Source: Treponema sp.
Lineage (GTDB): Bacteria > Spirochaetota > Spirochaetia > Treponematales > Breznakiellaceae
Direction: 5' to 3'
NCBI GenBank assembly: GCA_031280125.1
Contig: JAITHE010000148.1
Coordinates: forward strand, 1-35,513
DNA: 35,513 bases
The stretch's first letter is position 1; each line of letters opens with the position of its first letter. Shown here one piece after another: positions 21,224 to 29,166 of the stretch. The notes below the pieces were generated by a model. It saw nothing but the letters and a program-made list of their open reading frames with translations, did no database searches and had not been told where the DNA came from. A program made the translations under genes and the position numbers.

Positions 21224-21721
21224 ATGAAAAAGCGGTGTATCGTTTTATTCCTTTTGGCGGGTATTCTGATCCCCCTTCCGGCTGCGACCATTTCCGTGCT
21301 GGTGATTGAAACAGGTCTGCCCCCAGGAATGGGAGCCACCGAATCCGCTTCGGTCTGGGAAAGCGGTTTGATGGACGCTTTTTTTGATGCGGGCCACATT
21401 GTCTCCAATGCTCCTATTCTGCGCCTGGAGGAAACCCCCGGTTCCGAATTCCCTCCGGAGGTACGCCGTGATTTTGACGCCGCCAGGATCGGTGGATCGG
21501 ATTTTTTTGTGATGGTACTTATTAAATACCGGGGTGTTCCGCCCGAAACGGAACAGGAAGAGCCCCGGGAAATAACCATAAAACTGTTCAGCGTTTCCTC
21601 GGGGAAGCTGATTTATGAAATGTCGGCCGCCGCCAAAGCCTGGGGAAGCTCCCAGGAGGCGTTTCTTGACGCCAAGCGGAACGCGGGATACCTTATTCCC
21701 CGCCTGTCTAGAAGGGGCTAG
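21224..21721 (+). CDS. Exported protein of unknown function
   Basis: A 165-residue protein not recognised as a named family. A clear signal peptide (MKKRCIVLFLLAGILIPLPA) is cut near residue 20. The mature part starts with ISVLVIETGLPPG, then an alpha/beta pattern including SDFFVMVLIKYRG and REITIKLFSVSSGKLIYEMS. That layout resembles small periplasmic domains of the CsgG/TolB-N/LpoB kind, but the similarity is only structural impression. AGAGGAG precedes the ATG. It is three bases upstream of the SPOR-domain gene, so the two are probably one operon and may both act at the cell wall. Confidence 0.75.
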   Translation: MKKRCIVLFLLAGILIPLPAATISVLVIETGLPPGMGATESASVWESGLMDAFFDAGHIVSNAPILRLEETPGSEFPPEVRRDFDAARIGGSDFFVMVLIKYRGVPPETEQEEPREITIKLFSVSSGKLIYEMSAAAKAWGSSQEAFLDAKRNAGYLIPRLSRRG

Positions 21722-21724
21722 AAT

Positions 21725-22900
21725 GTGAAAAAGATCCTTTTCTGCCTGCTGACGCCGGCGCTGGTTATCCTTTTTACCGGAGCGTCCGTCTGGGAGGGGG
21801 CGGCGGCGGTTTCCGGCGACTTTCCTGATGCAGGGCTCTACGTGGCCACCAATTCCTTTCCCCGGAATACGGTGGTGGATTTGACCAATTTGGAAACCGG
21901 CAAAACCGTCCGGGTCATCGTTACCGCAGGGCTTGAATCGCCGGGGCTGCTGGCCCTTGTTTCCCGGGAAGCCGCCGCCGCGGTGGGGCTCCAGAGCAGA
22001 ACCATTGGCCGGATCAGGATGATCCAGCCTTCCGATCCGGTGGCCTTTTCCCGTTTTACCGAGGATTATTTCCGTTCCGGCGATCCCGACTACGATCCCC
22101 GGGCGGCGGTGGAAGAAGCGGGCCGTGTTCCCGGTGTTACCGCCGCCCCCGGAACGCCTCCGTCCGGAAAAGAACCTGACAAACCCGCCGCCCAGGAACA
22201 TTCCGCTGCTTCCAGGGAAAGGGAAAAGGATCCCGAAAGCGCCTGGATCGCTTCTTCCCCGGCTGTTCCCCCGGCGGATACGGGCGGTACGGATCCCTAT
22301 GGTCCGGTCTATGAAATGCTGCCCTATCCTCCTGTATCTTCCCTTCCCGCGCAGCCGCCCGTGTCCGTACCGGAAACGATTCCGCCGCCGGCGGCTGTAC
22401 CTGAAGCGCCCCCGCCGCCTGTGTCCATACCAGCGGCGCCTCAAGACGTTCCTGCCGCCGGGGCGGATCCGGGGTATGTCTATATGCTGATCCCTGCCGA
22501 AGAAAGACCGCCCATTAGCTGGGATACCAGCCCTATTCCGCCGCCGGTTAAACCGGACCCAAAGCCGGAACCGCCTCCGAAGCCGGTTCAGCGGGAACCT
22601 GAAAGGATCATCCTTATCCCCGGCGCTGTGCCCGGGACATTCAGCGTTCCTTCGGTGGTTGAACTTGAAACGGGAAAATACTATCTCCAGATCGGGGCCT
22701 ATGGGAGGGTGGAACTGGTGGAAAAGGAACTGGCCAGGATTGAAAAAACATACCCCTTGGCGGTGCAGTGTACGAAAAGCAATGAAAAACCAGTCTACCG
22801 CATACTCATAGGCCCCGTCAACCAGGGGGAATCGGGGGCTTTGCTCCGTTCCTTCAAAATCAAAGGATACGACGACGCTTTTGTCAGAAGGGGAGAGTAG
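21725..22900 (+). CDS. Exported RlpA-like (DPBB) and SPOR-domain cell-wall protein
   Basis: A 391-residue secreted protein. The signal peptide MKKILFCLLTPALVILFTGA is followed at about residues 32-100 by a segment like the RlpA double-psi beta-barrel (VDLTNLETGKTVRVIVTAG, then a REAAAAVGL helix). The middle, about 135-310, is a long Pro/Ala-rich disordered linker with repeated PPP runs. The C-terminal 75 residues are a SPOR domain (YYLQIGAYGRVELVEKELAR, YRILIGPV), which binds denuded peptidoglycan at division sites. The Asp that RlpA uses within its NDRGPF motif is absent, so lytic activity is unlikely. The start is GTG 21725 with AAGGGG upstream; the ATG one base before is followed at once by a stop. 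Confidence 0.82.
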   Translation: MKKILFCLLTPALVILFTGASVWEGAAAVSGDFPDAGLYVATNSFPRNTVVDLTNLETGKTVRVIVTAGLESPGLLALVSREAAAAVGLQSRTIGRIRMIQPSDPVAFSRFTEDYFRSGDPDYDPRAAVEEAGRVPGVTAAPGTPPSGKEPDKPAAQEHSAASREREKDPESAWIASSPAVPPADTGGTDPYGPVYEMLPYPPVSSLPAQPPVSVPETIPPPAAVPEAPPPPVSIPAAPQDVPAAGADPGYVYMLIPAEERPPISWDTSPIPPPVKPDPKPEPPPKPVQREPERIILIPGAVPGTFSVPSVVELETGKYYLQIGAYGRVELVEKELARIEKTYPLAVQCTKSNEKPVYRILIGPVNQGESGALLRSFKIKGYDDAFVRRGE

Positions 22901-23014: not shown

Positions 23015-25804
23015 TTAGCGCCCATGGCAGTGTTTATACTTTTTCCCCGAACCACAGGGGCAGGGGTCGTTGCGGCCTACCTTGGGATTCGCCCGGACCA
23101 CCGTGGCGTTAAGTCCCGCCCCGGACCGGCCGCCCTGATTCTGGCTCCGGACCGGAGGAATCCGGTTCGGAGCGGGACCGGCGGAACCAAAGGCGGTAAC
23201 CGTACCGTGGTTGGCAGACTGGACCCGCGGAGCCGGACGATCCCTGGTTTCCCGGTCCCCCGCGGCCTGAATTCTGACCAGGTGTACCCGGGAGGCAATT
23301 TCCCTGCGGATCGTGTCGATCATCGCATCGAAAATTTGAAAGCCCTCCAGCTTGTACTCCGTTAAGGGATTTTTTTGGGCATAGCCCCGGAGGTACACCG
23401 CCTCCCGCAGGGCCTCCATATTTTCCAGATGATCCAGCCACTGGCGGTCGATAAACTGCAGGTACTGGGCGCGGATAAAGGCGTTAATCGCTTCGGGCCC
23501 CAGGATCGCTTCCTTGCGGTCAATATCCGCTTCCAGTTCCTTCATAAGCTGTTCTTCCAGCGCCTCGGGACTTTTTACCGTTCCTCCGGAGCCGATGGCC
23601 GAATCTTCGCCCATAGCGGGGACATGGTTAAATTTTTCTTTGAGGAAAACCAGCAGCCCCTTGAGGGCTTCCTGGGAATTTTGTTTTCCCAAAGCACAGA
23701 AATCCGCCACCGCCCGGTTTACCATGCCGGCGGTGGCGTCGTTGACCCGCTCTTTTAGCCGGACGTCCCGCAGTATGGCGTCCCGCTGTTCGTAGATAAA
23801 TTTCCGCTGCTGGTTAAGCACGTCGTCGTATTCCAGAAGATGCTTGCGAATTTCAAAATTCCGCTCCTCCACCTTTTTTTGGGCCTTTTCGATGCTCTTG
23901 TTAAGCCAGGGATGGTAGATGGGTTCCCCCCCCTCCATACCCATTTTGGCCATGATCCCCTTGATATTTTCTCCGCCAAAGAGCCGCATCAGGTCATCGT
24001 CCATGGAGATGAAAAACTTGCTCCGCCCCGGATCCCCCTGGCGGCCCGACCGTCCCCGGAGCTGGTTGTCGATCCGGCGGCTTTCGTGGCGTTCCGTGCC
24101 GATCACATAAAGACCCCCTAAAGATTTTACCTCCCCATAGTCGGCTTTCCATTTTTCGTACTCCGCATCGTAGGCCGCCCGGTACACTTCGGGGGCCGCC
24201 TCCGTCCCGGCCCGTTTACGGGCCCGGTGTTCGGGGCTCCCCCCCAGTTTGATGTCCGTCCCCCGGCCGGCCATATTGGTGGCGATGGTTACCGCCCCCT
24301 TCGAGCCGGCCTCGGCGATGATCGCCGCTTCCCGGGCGTGGTTTTTGGCGTTAAGAACCTCGTGGCGGATCCCCCGGCGGGTAAGGAGGGCCGAGACCTT
24401 TTCGGATTTTTCGATGGACACGGTTCCCACCAGCATGGGCTGGCCCTTTTTCCAGGCCCCCTCGATTTCATCGCAGAGGGCACGGAACTTGTCCTCCTCG
24501 TTGAGGTACACCACGTCGTTTTCATCGGCACGGATCGCCTGAACATTGGTGGGGATCACCACCACATCCAGGTTGTAGATCTTGTTGAATTCCACCGCCT
24601 CCGTGTCGGCGGTGCCGGTCATGCCGGAAATTTTTTCGTAGAGCCGGAAATAGTTCTGGAAGGTGATCATCGCCAGGGTCCGGTTCCGCTGGGCAATCTT
24701 GATCCGTTCCTTGGCTTCGATAGCCTGGTGGAGGCCGTCGGAATAGCGCCGGCCGTGGAGGATCCGCCCGGTAAACTCATCCACAATCTGGACCTGGCCG
24801 TCCTGGACCACATAATCCACGTCGATATGGAAAAGCTTGTGGGCCCGCAGGGCCTGGGTAAAGTAGTGGAGGTATTCAAAGTTTTCCTCCTCCACGATGG
24901 CGCCCTTTATCACATGTCGCTTTTGAAGGATCTCCTCGATTTTGGCAAGCCCGGCGTTGGTAAAGGAAATGTTTTTGTTTTTTTCGTTAAGCTTGTAATC
25001 CCCGGTTACTTCCTCCCCCTGGGCTTCGTCGGGGTAGTCGCCGTTTTCTTTTTTGCGGACCTCCTCCAGGGTGGAAAGGAGCTTGTCCACCTCGGCGTAC
25101 TTGAAGGTGTCGTCCTCGGCGGCGCCGGAAATAATGAGGGGGGTCCGGGCCTCGTCGATGAGGATCGAGTCAATCTCGTCCACGATGCAAAAGGGGTGCC
25201 CCCGCTGAACCCGGCGTTCCAGATCCCAGAGCATGTTGTCCCTGAGGTAGTCAAAGCCCAATTCGTTGTTGGTGCCGTAGGTAATGTCGCAGGCGTAGCC
25301 GGCCTTCCGCCGTTCATTGTCCATATCGGAAAGGATGGTCCCCACGGTGATCCCCAGGGCGTTGTAAACCCGGCCCATCCACCCGGCGTCCCGGCCCGCC
25401 AGGTAATCGTTCACCGTAACGATGTGCACCCCCCGGCCGGGGATGGCGTTAAGGTACGCCGCGGCAACACTCATCAGGGTTTTCCCCTCGCCGGTCTTCA
25501 TCTCCACGATCTTTCCCTGGTGAAGGACCACAGCCCCCATGATCTGTACGTCGTAGGGCCGTTCCCCCAGAACCCGGCGGCTCGCCTCCCGGGCCAGGGC
25601 AAAGGCTTCGGGGAGGAGGGCGTCCAGGGTTTCCCCCTCTTCGTAGCGGCGGCGGAACTGTCCGGTGATGTCCGGAAAGGCTTCGGAGGAAAGGGCGGCG
25701 GCCCAGCTTTCTTTGTCGTTAACCTGCCGTACCACGGGGAGAAGACGCTTCACATCCCGTTCATGCTGGGACCCAAAAAGGGCCTTTACCACTGTATCAA
25801 GCAT
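23015..25804 (-). CDS. secA: Preprotein translocase ATPase SecA
   Basis: This 929-residue motor drives protein export through SecYEG. Walker A is MKTGEGKT at residues 102-109, the DEAD-like Walker B is VDEID at 208-212, and [20 protein letters not shown] and [13 protein letters not shown] are conserved helicase motifs. The C-terminal zinc site is C915, C917, H925/C926 in [12 protein letters not shown], preceded by a flexible linker. All parts of normal SecA are present. ATG 25804 has no clear Shine-Dalgarno sequence, and a promoter-like sequence ends six bases upstream, so the mRNA may be leaderless. It diverges from the mre operon across a repeat-bearing spacer. Confidence 0.98.
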
Positions 25805-25897: not shown

Positions 25898-26044
25898 TTC
25901 TTGCTCAGAAACAGGTTATTCTTACTCAGAACTAACCCGTTTCTGATCAAAAACACCTTGTTCTTAATCAGAACTAACCCATTCTTGATCAGAAACACCT
26001 TGTTCTTGATCAAAAACAACCCGTTTGTAGTCAAGAAGGGGAGG
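25898..26044. repeat. 21-bp imperfect tandem repeat array with palindromic cores
   Basis: Seven consecutive units start at 25898, 25919, 25940, 25961, 25982, 26003 and 26024, exactly 21 bp apart. Each has a 13-base core close to TTCTTGATCAGAA, centred on TGATCA in the best copies, then an 8-base spacer. Spacers alternate: ACACCTTG follows units 3 and 5, while CTAACCCG/A follows units 2 and 4, so a 42-bp higher-order unit is visible. Decayed copies continue in phase at 26045 and 26066. Units are contiguous, unlike a CRISPR array. Confidence 0.9.
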
Positions 26045-26113
26045 GGCTTCACCGGAAAACCCCGGTTTGTCATCACCAAGGGGCTGTTTTGAGGGAAAAA
26101 CGCCCGGCGTCTT

Positions 26114-26160
26114 GTGAGCAAGGCGCTGCCTCCAGGAAACCTGGAGGTGTTCAAGCTCAC
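26114..26160. other. Strong hairpin upstream of the mre operon promoter
   Basis: CCTCCAGG (26129-26136), loop AAA, CCTGGAGG (26140-26147) form a perfect eight-base stem. It is nested inside a second perfect pair, GTGAGC (26114-26119) with GCTCAC (26155-26160). No T-run follows and no plus-strand gene precedes it, so a terminator is unlikely; a protein-binding site or structured small RNA is possible. Confidence 0.6.
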
Positions 26161-26230
26161 GCCGGCGCGGGCCCCGCTTTTTCCCCGCTCCCCGGCGATA
26201 AAAAGGACATCCAGGGGCCCTGGGTTACCA

Positions 26231-26265: not shown

Positions 26266-27198
26266 ATGGCTAAAATGTGGATCGGCGCCGCCGCCGGCAC
26301 TGTACTGAATAGGCGCATTGTGCGGTGGGCCGCGGCTGTTTTTCTGTGTGCCGGGGCGGCGGTCCTCTGTATGGTTCTCTTCAGGGCAAAAACCAGGGAA
26401 CTGCAGACAAAAAGGGAACTGCTGGATTTGTGGGAAGCGAAAAACTACAACGATGCCTATAAAAAAAGCCGGGAAGGGCTCTCCCGCAGGCCCCTGGACA
26501 GCCTCTTCCTGACCGTCAACGGTTTTACTTCCTATCAGGCGGCTGTTTCCCAGATCGATCAGGCCGGGGCCTTTGCCTATGTGGAAGAGTGTATCTGGTC
26601 CCTAAGAAAGGCTCTTTTGGGCAGAAATTCCGATAGGAACGGCAGAATCCGCTATGTTTTGGGCAAAGCATACTATATTAAAGGGCCGGAATACGCCGAT
26701 CTGGCGGTAAAATACCTGGAAGAGGCAAAGGCCGCTTCCTGTGAAGCGGGGGATCTCAACGAATACCTGGGCCTGGCTTACGCCGCCCTCAAGGATTACC
26801 CCAGGAGCGTAGAAGCCCTTACCGGATCCTTGAGTTCCGGAGAGGAGGGATCGGATCTGCTCCTTCTCTCGATAGCCCAGTCCTATATGGGTATGGAAGA
26901 CTGGGATTCGGCCCGGACCTACCTTATACGCTGCGCCGAAGTGTCCAGGGACGAGGACGTGGTCATAAAATCAAGGCTGCTGTTGAGCAGGGCGCTCCGC
27001 GGCGCCGGGGATACCGGAGGGGCCGAAACCGCCCTTGGGTGGATTCTGGAAAACGTTGAAAACGCCGAGGCGGCCTATGAACTGGGGGAAATCTACGCGG
27101 AACGGGGAGAAACTATCCGGGCCAGGGCCGCATGGCGGAGGGCCTACAGGGCCGATCGCAATTACGGACCGGCGCAGATCCGGCTCAATACTATGTAA
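26266..27198 (+). CDS. Membrane-anchored TPR protein, first gene of the mre operon
   Basis: A 310-residue protein with a short cytoplasmic N terminus, one membrane helix (VRWAAAVFLCAGAAVLCMVLF, about residues 21-41) and a TPR-like helical domain. Helix pairs are visible as YADLAVKYLEEAKA, NEYLGLAYAALKDYPRSVEA, LLSIAQSYMGMEDWDSARTY and AAYELGEIYAERGETIRARA. ATG 26266 is preferred over an in-frame start at 26089, because the extra residues would be encoded by the hairpin and promoter region. The next gene is mreB, 39 bp away. A role as a scaffold for the cell-elongation complex follows from operon position only. Confidence 0.8.
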   Translation: MAKMWIGAAAGTVLNRRIVRWAAAVFLCAGAAVLCMVLFRAKTRELQTKRELLDLWEAKNYNDAYKKSREGLSRRPLDSLFLTVNGFTSYQAAVSQIDQAGAFAYVEECIWSLRKALLGRNSDRNGRIRYVLGKAYYIKGPEYADLAVKYLEEAKAASCEAGDLNEYLGLAYAALKDYPRSVEALTGSLSSGEEGSDLLLLSIAQSYMGMEDWDSARTYLIRCAEVSRDEDVVIKSRLLLSRALRGAGDTGGAETALGWILENVENAEAAYELGEIYAERGETIRARAAWRRAYRADRNYGPAQIRLNTM

Positions 27199-27237: not shown

Positions 27238-28266
27238 ATGTTTGGGGTAAAATCTTCTGATATAGGGATTGATTTGGGAACCTGTAATACCCTTATCTAT
27301 ATCCGCGGCAAGGGAATTGTAATCAACGAGCCTTCCGTGGTGGCGGTAGAGCGGGGAACCAAGAAGGTCATGGCTGTGGGAGAAGACGCCAAGCGGATGC
27401 TCTACAAAACCCCGGGGAATATCATCGCCATCCGGCCCATGCGGGACGGGGTTATCGCCGACCTGGAATCTACGGAAAAGATGATCCGTTATTTTATCAC
27501 CAAGATCCTTCCCCGGTACCGGTTTATCAAGCCCCGGATGGTCATCGGGATCCCCTCCTGCATTACCGAGGTGGAACGCCGGGCGGTGGAAGAAAGCGCC
27601 TACAAGGCCGGAGCCCGGGATGTCCAGGTTATCGAAGAAAGCCTCGCCGCCGCCATCGGGGCGGACATTCCCATCTTTGAGCCCGCGGGCCACATGGTCT
27701 GCGACATCGGCGGGGGAACCACGGAAATTTCCGTCATATCCCTGGGGGGCATGGTGGTAACCAACGCCATACGCCTGGGGGGGGATGAATTTGACGAGGC
27801 GATCATCAAGCACGTCCGCAGCGTCCACAACCTTATCATCGGGGAACAGACCGCGGAACGGCTTAAAATCGAAATCGGCAACGCTTCGCCGGACAAGACC
27901 ATCGAGAAGGTGGAGATCAAGGGAACCGATGCCATCACGGGACTTCCCCGGCGGCTGGAGATCGACTCGGTAGAAGTCCGGGAGGCCCTGAAGGACCCCA
28001 TCACCCAGATCATCGACGAGATCAAGGCGACCCTGGGCCAGACCCCGCCGGAATTGGCGGCGGATATTGTGGAACGGGGAATTGTGATGACCGGCGGAGG
28101 ATCCCTCCTCAAGGGGCTGCCCAAGCTTATCTCCAAGGAGACCGGAGTGCCGGTGATCCTGGCGGAACAGCCCCTGGACTGCGTGGCCCTGGGGGCGGGT
28201 AAGTACTTTGAATATGCCAAGGGCTTTGACAATACCCGGAGCATTTACGACAGCCTTAACGGATAG
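27238..28266 (+). CDS. mreB: Rod shape-determining protein MreB
   Basis: A 342-residue bacterial actin that polymerises under the membrane and guides lateral wall synthesis. The actin-fold signatures are intact: [19 protein letters not shown] for phosphate 1, IGGGTTEIS-type phosphate 2 ([16 protein letters not shown]), and [17 protein letters not shown] for the adenosine motif. Length is standard. ATG 27238 follows GGAGG by four bases, one of the strongest ribosome-binding sites in the window, matching the high MreB level usually needed. Confidence 0.98.
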
Positions 28267-28299
28267 GCGGTGGAAGGGACCGGGCGGAGTTTACCTGGC

Positions 28300-29166
28300 A
28301 TGATTGGGGAAGGTCAAAAAAAAAGAAGGCGCGCCAGCGCAGAGGCCTATGTTTTTGTGGTCCTGAGCCTGGTTTCATTTTCCGTACTGCTCTTTTCCGC
28401 CCGAAGTTTTGTGGTCGATTTCAAAGACATGGGCCTGAGCATGTACTCGGGGTTGAGGGGCAGCCTCTTTAAGCTTACCTCCTTTGTGTCTAGGACCGTA
28501 CTCTCCGTTCAGGAACTGACCTCACTTAAGGAAGACTACGATGAATTAAGGGCCCGCATGACCAGGTACGAACAGCTTGAAAGGACGGCGGCGGATATAC
28601 GGCAGGAAAACAACCGCCTGCGGGAGCAGCTTGATTTTTCCCGGACCATCCGGTACCGCCACGTCCCGGCAGAAATTATCGCCAGCGACCCGGACAACCT
28701 CTTTTCGGCCTTTGTGATAAACAAGGGAAAAAACGCCGGCCTCACCGGCAACATGCCGGTTATCGCCTACCAAAACGGCGTAGAACTCCTGGTGGGCAAG
28801 GTGATCCAGGCCGCCAATCTGGAAAGCCTCATCATGCCCCTCTATGATTCCAGCTCCTTTATTTCCGCCAGGCTCGCCGAATCCAGAATAGAAGGAATCG
28901 TAGAGGGCCAGGGCAGTCCCGAAGAGTCCCTGCTGATGCGTTTTGTCCGGGGGCGGACCAAGGGAGAGATAAGCGTCGGGGAACCGGTGGTTTCCAGCGG
29001 GCTGGGGGGAGTGTTTCCGCCGGGGATAAACCTGGGCAGGGTAAGCAGGGTCATCTATCAGGATAACGATACCTCCATAGAAATAGAACTGGAGAGCAGC
29101 GCCGATTTTTCCCGGCTGGAATATGTCTTTGTCATCGACGCCCGGCAGCCGGCGGGAGGTTCCTGA
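28300..29166 (+). CDS. mreC: Rod shape-determining protein MreC
   Basis: A bitopic elongasome protein linking MreB to PBP2. After a basic N terminus (KKRRRAS) comes one membrane helix (AYVFVVLSLVSFSVLLFSA), a periplasmic coiled coil (about 28490-28640, with ELRARMTRYEQLERTAADI), and two beta domains with GVVGKV-like VELLVGKVIQ, GEPVVSSGLGGVFPPGI and a conserved end. ATG 28300 has GGAG ten bases upstream and gives 288 residues; GTG 28270, four bases after the mreB stop, would give 298 and cannot be excluded. Its stop shares one base with the mreD start (TGATG). Confidence 0.95.
   Translation: MIGEGQKKRRRASAEAYVFVVLSLVSFSVLLFSARSFVVDFKDMGLSMYSGLRGSLFKLTSFVSRTVLSVQELTSLKEDYDELRARMTRYEQLERTAADIRQENNRLREQLDFSRTIRYRHVPAEIIASDPDNLFSAFVINKGKNAGLTGNMPVIAYQNGVELLVGKVIQAANLESLIMPLYDSSSFISARLAESRIEGIVEGQGSPEESLLMRFVRGRTKGEISVGEPVVSSGLGGVFPPGINLGRVSRVIYQDNDTSIEIELESSADFSRLEYVFVIDARQPAGGS

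Follow-up and report, generated by a model that had tools for sequence, protein, structure and literature searches.

Plasmid iterons are direct repeats, each spanning roughly two turns of the helix and presenting one face of it, and CRISPR arrays are built of regular repeats separated by unique spacers of about 30 nt. Abundant non-coding satellites are rare in bacterial genomes. The prokaryotic satellites and minisatellites described by Subirana and Messeguer in 2019 (PMC6749651) have units of 10 to 200 nt in at least four copies and are partly intergenic, and in Leptospira interrogans families of them have been transposed between loci. REP, BIME and REPIN elements are small palindromic repeats dispersed between genes (PMC3733652, PMC3116915). 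The genome of a spirochaete that is an ectosymbiont of Mixotricha has a GC content of 59% and a coding density of 0.69 (PMC12483993).

Here we describe a class of tandem arrays that do not code for protein, that almost without exception have a period of 21 bp, and that are dispersed between genes in some termite-gut spirochaetes. Such arrays could contribute to the coding density seen in the Mixotricha ectosymbiont. Like iterons, the arrays are direct repeats of two helical turns: among successive core intervals of up to 60 bp, 186 of 189 are exactly 21 bp, one is 42 bp, and two are double hits offset by one base. Unlike iterons, they occupy many chromosomal loci, and no replication initiator was found beside the arrays examined among the flanking genes that could be named (secA, TPR-mre, argR, fapA, mtlD, a SPOR-domain gene and GH43). 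The regularity of the repeats recalls CRISPR arrays, but the 7-bp spacers recur within and between arrays. As in the prokaryotic satellites, there are at least four regular tandem repeats and array families recur at several loci, whereas here an exact 21-bp period is common to most of the non-coding families within one genome, a rule that the accessible text of PMC6749651 does not report. Dispersal, intergenic placement and small palindromic repeats are features in common with REP, BIME and REPIN elements (PMC3733652, PMC3116915), from which the present arrays differ in their strict head-to-tail 21-bp arrangement and in the presence of several unrelated families per genome; moreover, the core unit carries neither the GTAG nor the CGTC tag that marks the 20 to 40 bp REP/REPIN palindromes. 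In the literature we found no description of repeats that differ in sequence yet all keep to one exact period of two turns.

The array between secA and the mre genes

The window, that is, the whole stretch of 35,513 nucleotides that was analysed, is contig 49 of the genome G000, a fragmented MAG of 2.43 Mb in 172 contigs that is 77% complete. Positions 25898 to 26044 of the window, to which no strand is assigned, comprise seven 21-bp units that start at 25898, 25919, 25940, 25961, 25982, 26003 and 26024 and carry the family core TTYYTGRYCARRAA-YRNNNYR. The two-unit pattern TTYYTGRYCARRAA-N7-TTYYTGRYCARRAA, allowing up to three mismatches, has five matches in the window, every one inside the array, and none in 100 dinucleotide shuffles of the window. 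TRF scored a 42-bp period (160, with 81% matches) above a 21-bp period (87), and this preference confirms that the spacers alternate with a 42-bp period. Three decayed 21-mers, likewise without strand, follow at 26045 to 26107, starting at 26045, 26066 and 26087; they stay in phase with the array, and each keeps 10 of 14 core positions. The original prediction had claimed exact 21-bp spacing of seven units, alternating spacers produced by growth in 42-bp steps, decayed copies continuing in phase, and palindromic cores in helical phase, and all of these are supported by the present analysis. Its description of every core as of the TGATCA type is loosely true, although an exact match to the degenerate core occurs in only three of the seven units. 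Directly beside the decayed copies, on the side towards the TPR gene and upstream of it, lies a 96-nt near-perfect hairpin (26090 to 26185; MFE -49.8 kcal/mol, z -3.9), and elsewhere in the window a 30-bp tandem repeat (22354 to 22431) is found within an ORF (21245 to 22444) that has no Pfam or NCBIfam match.

The neighbouring genes are those that had been named beforehand. The 5' end of secA, on the minus strand at 23015 to 25804, faces the array; on the plus strand follow a TPR-repeat gene (26266 to 27198), which is the first gene ahead of mreB, and then mreB and mreC (27238 to 29166). In six relatives the divergent neighbour of secA is a lipoprotein-like gene rather than the TPR gene. The TPR gene, for its part, is preceded by the series dnaG-rpoD-coiled-coil gene in at least five relatives. 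Among the genomes compared, secA and the TPR gene are adjacent in G000 only. The lipoprotein-like and coiled-coil genes of G000 sit on a separate contig, C169, on which the start of the lipoprotein-like gene abuts a 14-unit array that belongs to a second family and has a GH43 gene after it. The gene order in the relatives, together with the arrangement on C169, indicates that secA and the TPR gene were joined by a lineage-specific rearrangement. Arrays are present at two of the three junctions visible in G000; with a fragmented MAG that shows three junctions, and with an array at argR/fapA that is accompanied by no rearrangement as a counter-case, a role of arrays as marks of rearrangement junctions is suggestive only.

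The core family at other loci and in other genomes

Core-family arrays in G000 are present in the window and on four other contigs, at unrelated loci. Exact core pairs number 27 across these five loci and zero in the reversed control, and the flanks of the loci have no sequence in common except array-like sequence. A search of related genomes for the core at 21-bp spacing, as suggested with the original prediction, found core pairs in 6 of 200 genomes of the family, which we read as Breznakiellaceae; these belong to 6 of the 57 genera sampled, and the core takes a somewhat different form in each. The named records that contain the core pattern in a public collection are mostly Spirochaetaceae of the termite-gut type or Treponema MAGs. 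Over 211 units from the six genera the columns of the unit read TTYYTRRYYARRAAYRNNNYR. Purine or pyrimidine identity is kept at 18 of the 21 columns, with exceptions of 0.6 to 6.9%, and columns 17 to 19 are free. Because an R/Y-degenerate pattern was used to collect the units, transitions are favoured at the core positions. The same R/Y pattern appears in spacer columns 15, 16, 20 and 21 and in a pattern-free clustering, both of which are less exposed to this collection bias.

Single core sites in genomes without arrays are generally not above the reversed control (the exception is G021, with 10 versus 2). They thus give no hint of a regulon that has been conserved, and a conserved single-site regulon was rejected as an explanation. 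Beyond the family, period-21 arrays with similar cores occur in three single MAGs, assigned to Pyrinomonadaceae (L056:5580-5719), Bacteroidetes (L057:5622-5926) and Prevotellaceae (L071:7592-7699), which are possibly cases of convergence. Two further sets of matches were set aside as coding: those in Campylobacterota and Sulfurovum fall in one conserved gene, read as elongation factor Ts, and a pattern pair in L079 lies within an ORF.

At one of the other G000 loci a core array lies between the divergent genes argR and fapA. It is flanked by an aligning argR-side region (TGCATAAATATACA in the relatives) and by a GCCGATACT motif, which is read as a putative flagellar-sigma -10 element; the likely start of fapA, with a promoter-like motif that is conserved, lies downstream of the array. 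Since relatives keep this gene pair without the array and with both flanks conserved, the array was gained while neither side was disturbed. Absence of the array from close relatives with intact promoters had been put forward as evidence that would tell against the prediction; such a case is found, in spirit, at argR/fapA.

The divergent arrangement of the genes around the window array, and of those around the argR/fapA array, is what a multi-site operator or upstream element governing secA and the mre operon would lead one to expect. We regard this reading as improbable, because the same core lies upstream of unrelated genes and recurs at four other G000 loci, because the secA-TPR adjacency is itself a rearrangement unique to G000, and because arrays in a relative, G008, show no preference for promoters. 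In G008, arrays occupy 3 of 14 convergent, 10 of 68 tandem and 2 of 13 divergent gaps, with no preference of orientation, and period-21 stretches overlap 7 of 157 called genes; these counts come from a home-made gene caller and include some loci that were fetched because they bear arrays. An apparent preference for convergent gaps in a first gene calling of G008 disappeared after repeat masking and the addition of more loci. The array family is thus confined neither to one regulon nor to promoters, and the earlier proposal of an operator at the secA and mre promoters is not sustained. A length-variable element for phase variation is suggested by a tandem array with 42-bp duplications between divergent genes; like arrays are also found in convergent and tandem gaps, and we consider this function very improbable indeed.

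Coding and RNA readings

Core-family arrays have an open frame 0 on either strand, as would be expected if they encoded a heptapeptide repeat (FLIKNxx) on either strand, and the original prediction had noted such a 7-residue repeat on both strands. The properties of the arrays contradict this reading. Of 74 arrays, 4 lack a stop-free frame, where column-permuted arrays would give 4.6, and in none of 73 arrays is there a codon-phase bias at p < 0.05. Position 9, a degenerate third codon position, is C in 99% of the G008 units, whereas the residue-changing positions 7, 8 and 11 vary freely. The location of the argR/fapA array upstream of a promoter-like motif and the likely fapA start also argues against translation. 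The 7-residue repeat is a by-product of repeat symmetry and not a coding signal, and it is hardly credible that the arrays are peptide-coding genes.

A second possibility is that the units form tandem RNA hairpins, for example in a transcribed spacer RNA, that are maintained by base pairing. Each unit can indeed be written as a 9-bp stem whose 3-nt loop coincides with the free columns, but C-A mismatches between paired columns are at or above the level expected from independence, covariation is absent, and no Rfam match was found within the window. Without covariation, and with C-A combinations tolerated, the columns are not explained by an RNA stem, and we give this reading little credence. 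An origin from phage or plasmid was also rejected: no viral contig contains the pattern and there is no plasmid match, the sole phage match being a coding heptapeptide repeat in the single-stranded DNA-binding protein of a Tenacibaculum phage.

The 21-bp period and its possible basis

When tandem repeats were surveyed by TRF and by lag analysis, the 21-bp period dominated across many unrelated sequences. In 129 kb of G008, 3,993 bp per 100 kb (about 4%) lie in period-21 arrays and none in arrays of 20, 22, 23 or 24 bp; in 712 kb of G000 the corresponding value is 273 bp per 100 kb, versus 11 to 52 at the other lags from 18 to 24. Most other genera, in small samples that include two complete genomes, have few or no period-21 arrays. 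G026 contains, besides 21-bp arrays, two with a 22-bp period and one with a 23-bp period (23- and 22-bp arrays are found at L156:996-1203 and L159:9712-10027), so that 21 bp is dominant there and not absolute. A second family, TTGTCtnnaGACAAcggggca, occupies at least four loci in G000 and occurs in 22 of 200 genomes and 15 of 57 genera of the family. At the L058 locus of G008 several array families follow each other in succession and keep one 21-bp register throughout. Dyad symmetry among 33 non-redundant arrays exceeds that of shuffles (z 5.5), and a perfect 12-bp palindrome is present in about 15% of non-redundant arrays versus 1.3% of random 21-mers, while most families are not palindromic. 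A 5-4-5-7 stem architecture common to all arrays was rejected, as only a minority fit it.

A two-turn period that stays fixed across unrelated sequences, the scarcity of indels, the dyad symmetry and a unit whose R/Y identity is constrained across six genera point to some constraint that is linked to the double helix. We therefore tentatively favour, with confidence that falls a little short of even, the view that these arrays are a dispersed, mainly intergenic and non-coding satellite class locked to 21 bp, in which the unit is kept by a putative phased DNA-binding protein and the array serves as a scaffold rather than an operator. Arrays would grow by slippage or unequal exchange, one or two units per step; a putative dimeric or oligomeric protein would contact every module of two turns from the same side of the helix; and the array might then act as a phased nucleoprotein scaffold that is not dedicated to the control of one gene. 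Of the functions offered in the original prediction, a nucleoid-protein platform is the most plausible candidate. The non-palindromic nature of most families and the 22- and 23-bp arrays of G026 count against a scaffold, and a single sequence-specific protein would not explain unrelated families that are alike in period alone.

The main rival is that the arrays are functionless satellite DNA, in which two helical turns are duplicated per copying event and units spread between loci, by slippage, by template switching eased by dyad symmetry, or by recombination, and collect where they are least harmful. We take this to be a serious possibility, if a less than even one. It accommodates the many unrelated unit families alike in period only, the mostly intergenic placement without orientation bias in long gaps (array-bearing gaps have medians of 840 to 960 bp), the composite arrays, and the assembly breaks at contig ends. 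The near-absence of indels in diverged arrays and the fact that genera agree in R/Y identity at 18 of the 21 columns while the other three are free look instead like constraint, and one and the same unit recurs in many genera. The evidence does not decisively separate the scaffold from functionless satellite DNA. It is rather unlikely that the arrays constitute a chromatin-like bacterial satellite, whose two-turn modules would have spread through the genome, present R/Y identity and dyad symmetry to a putative structural protein, and mark or promote rearrangement breakpoints.

If a protein enforces the period, phased chromatin could be put to the test in a bacterium with these spirochaetes; if the copying mechanism sets it, duplication would proceed in steps of the helical repeat. 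On either reading the arrays matter for termite-gut genomes, because they break assemblies and can give rise to spurious repeat ORFs. Several contigs of array-bearing MAGs begin or end in arrays or a few hundred bases from them (L067, L074, L075, L076, L077 and L080), and since contigs break at or near arrays, the number and length of arrays are probably underestimated. Two second-family arrays of G000 have a 166-bp flanking segment in common (L252:1695-1860 and L253:1682-1847, 96% identical), as would result if each array had been duplicated along with its flank.
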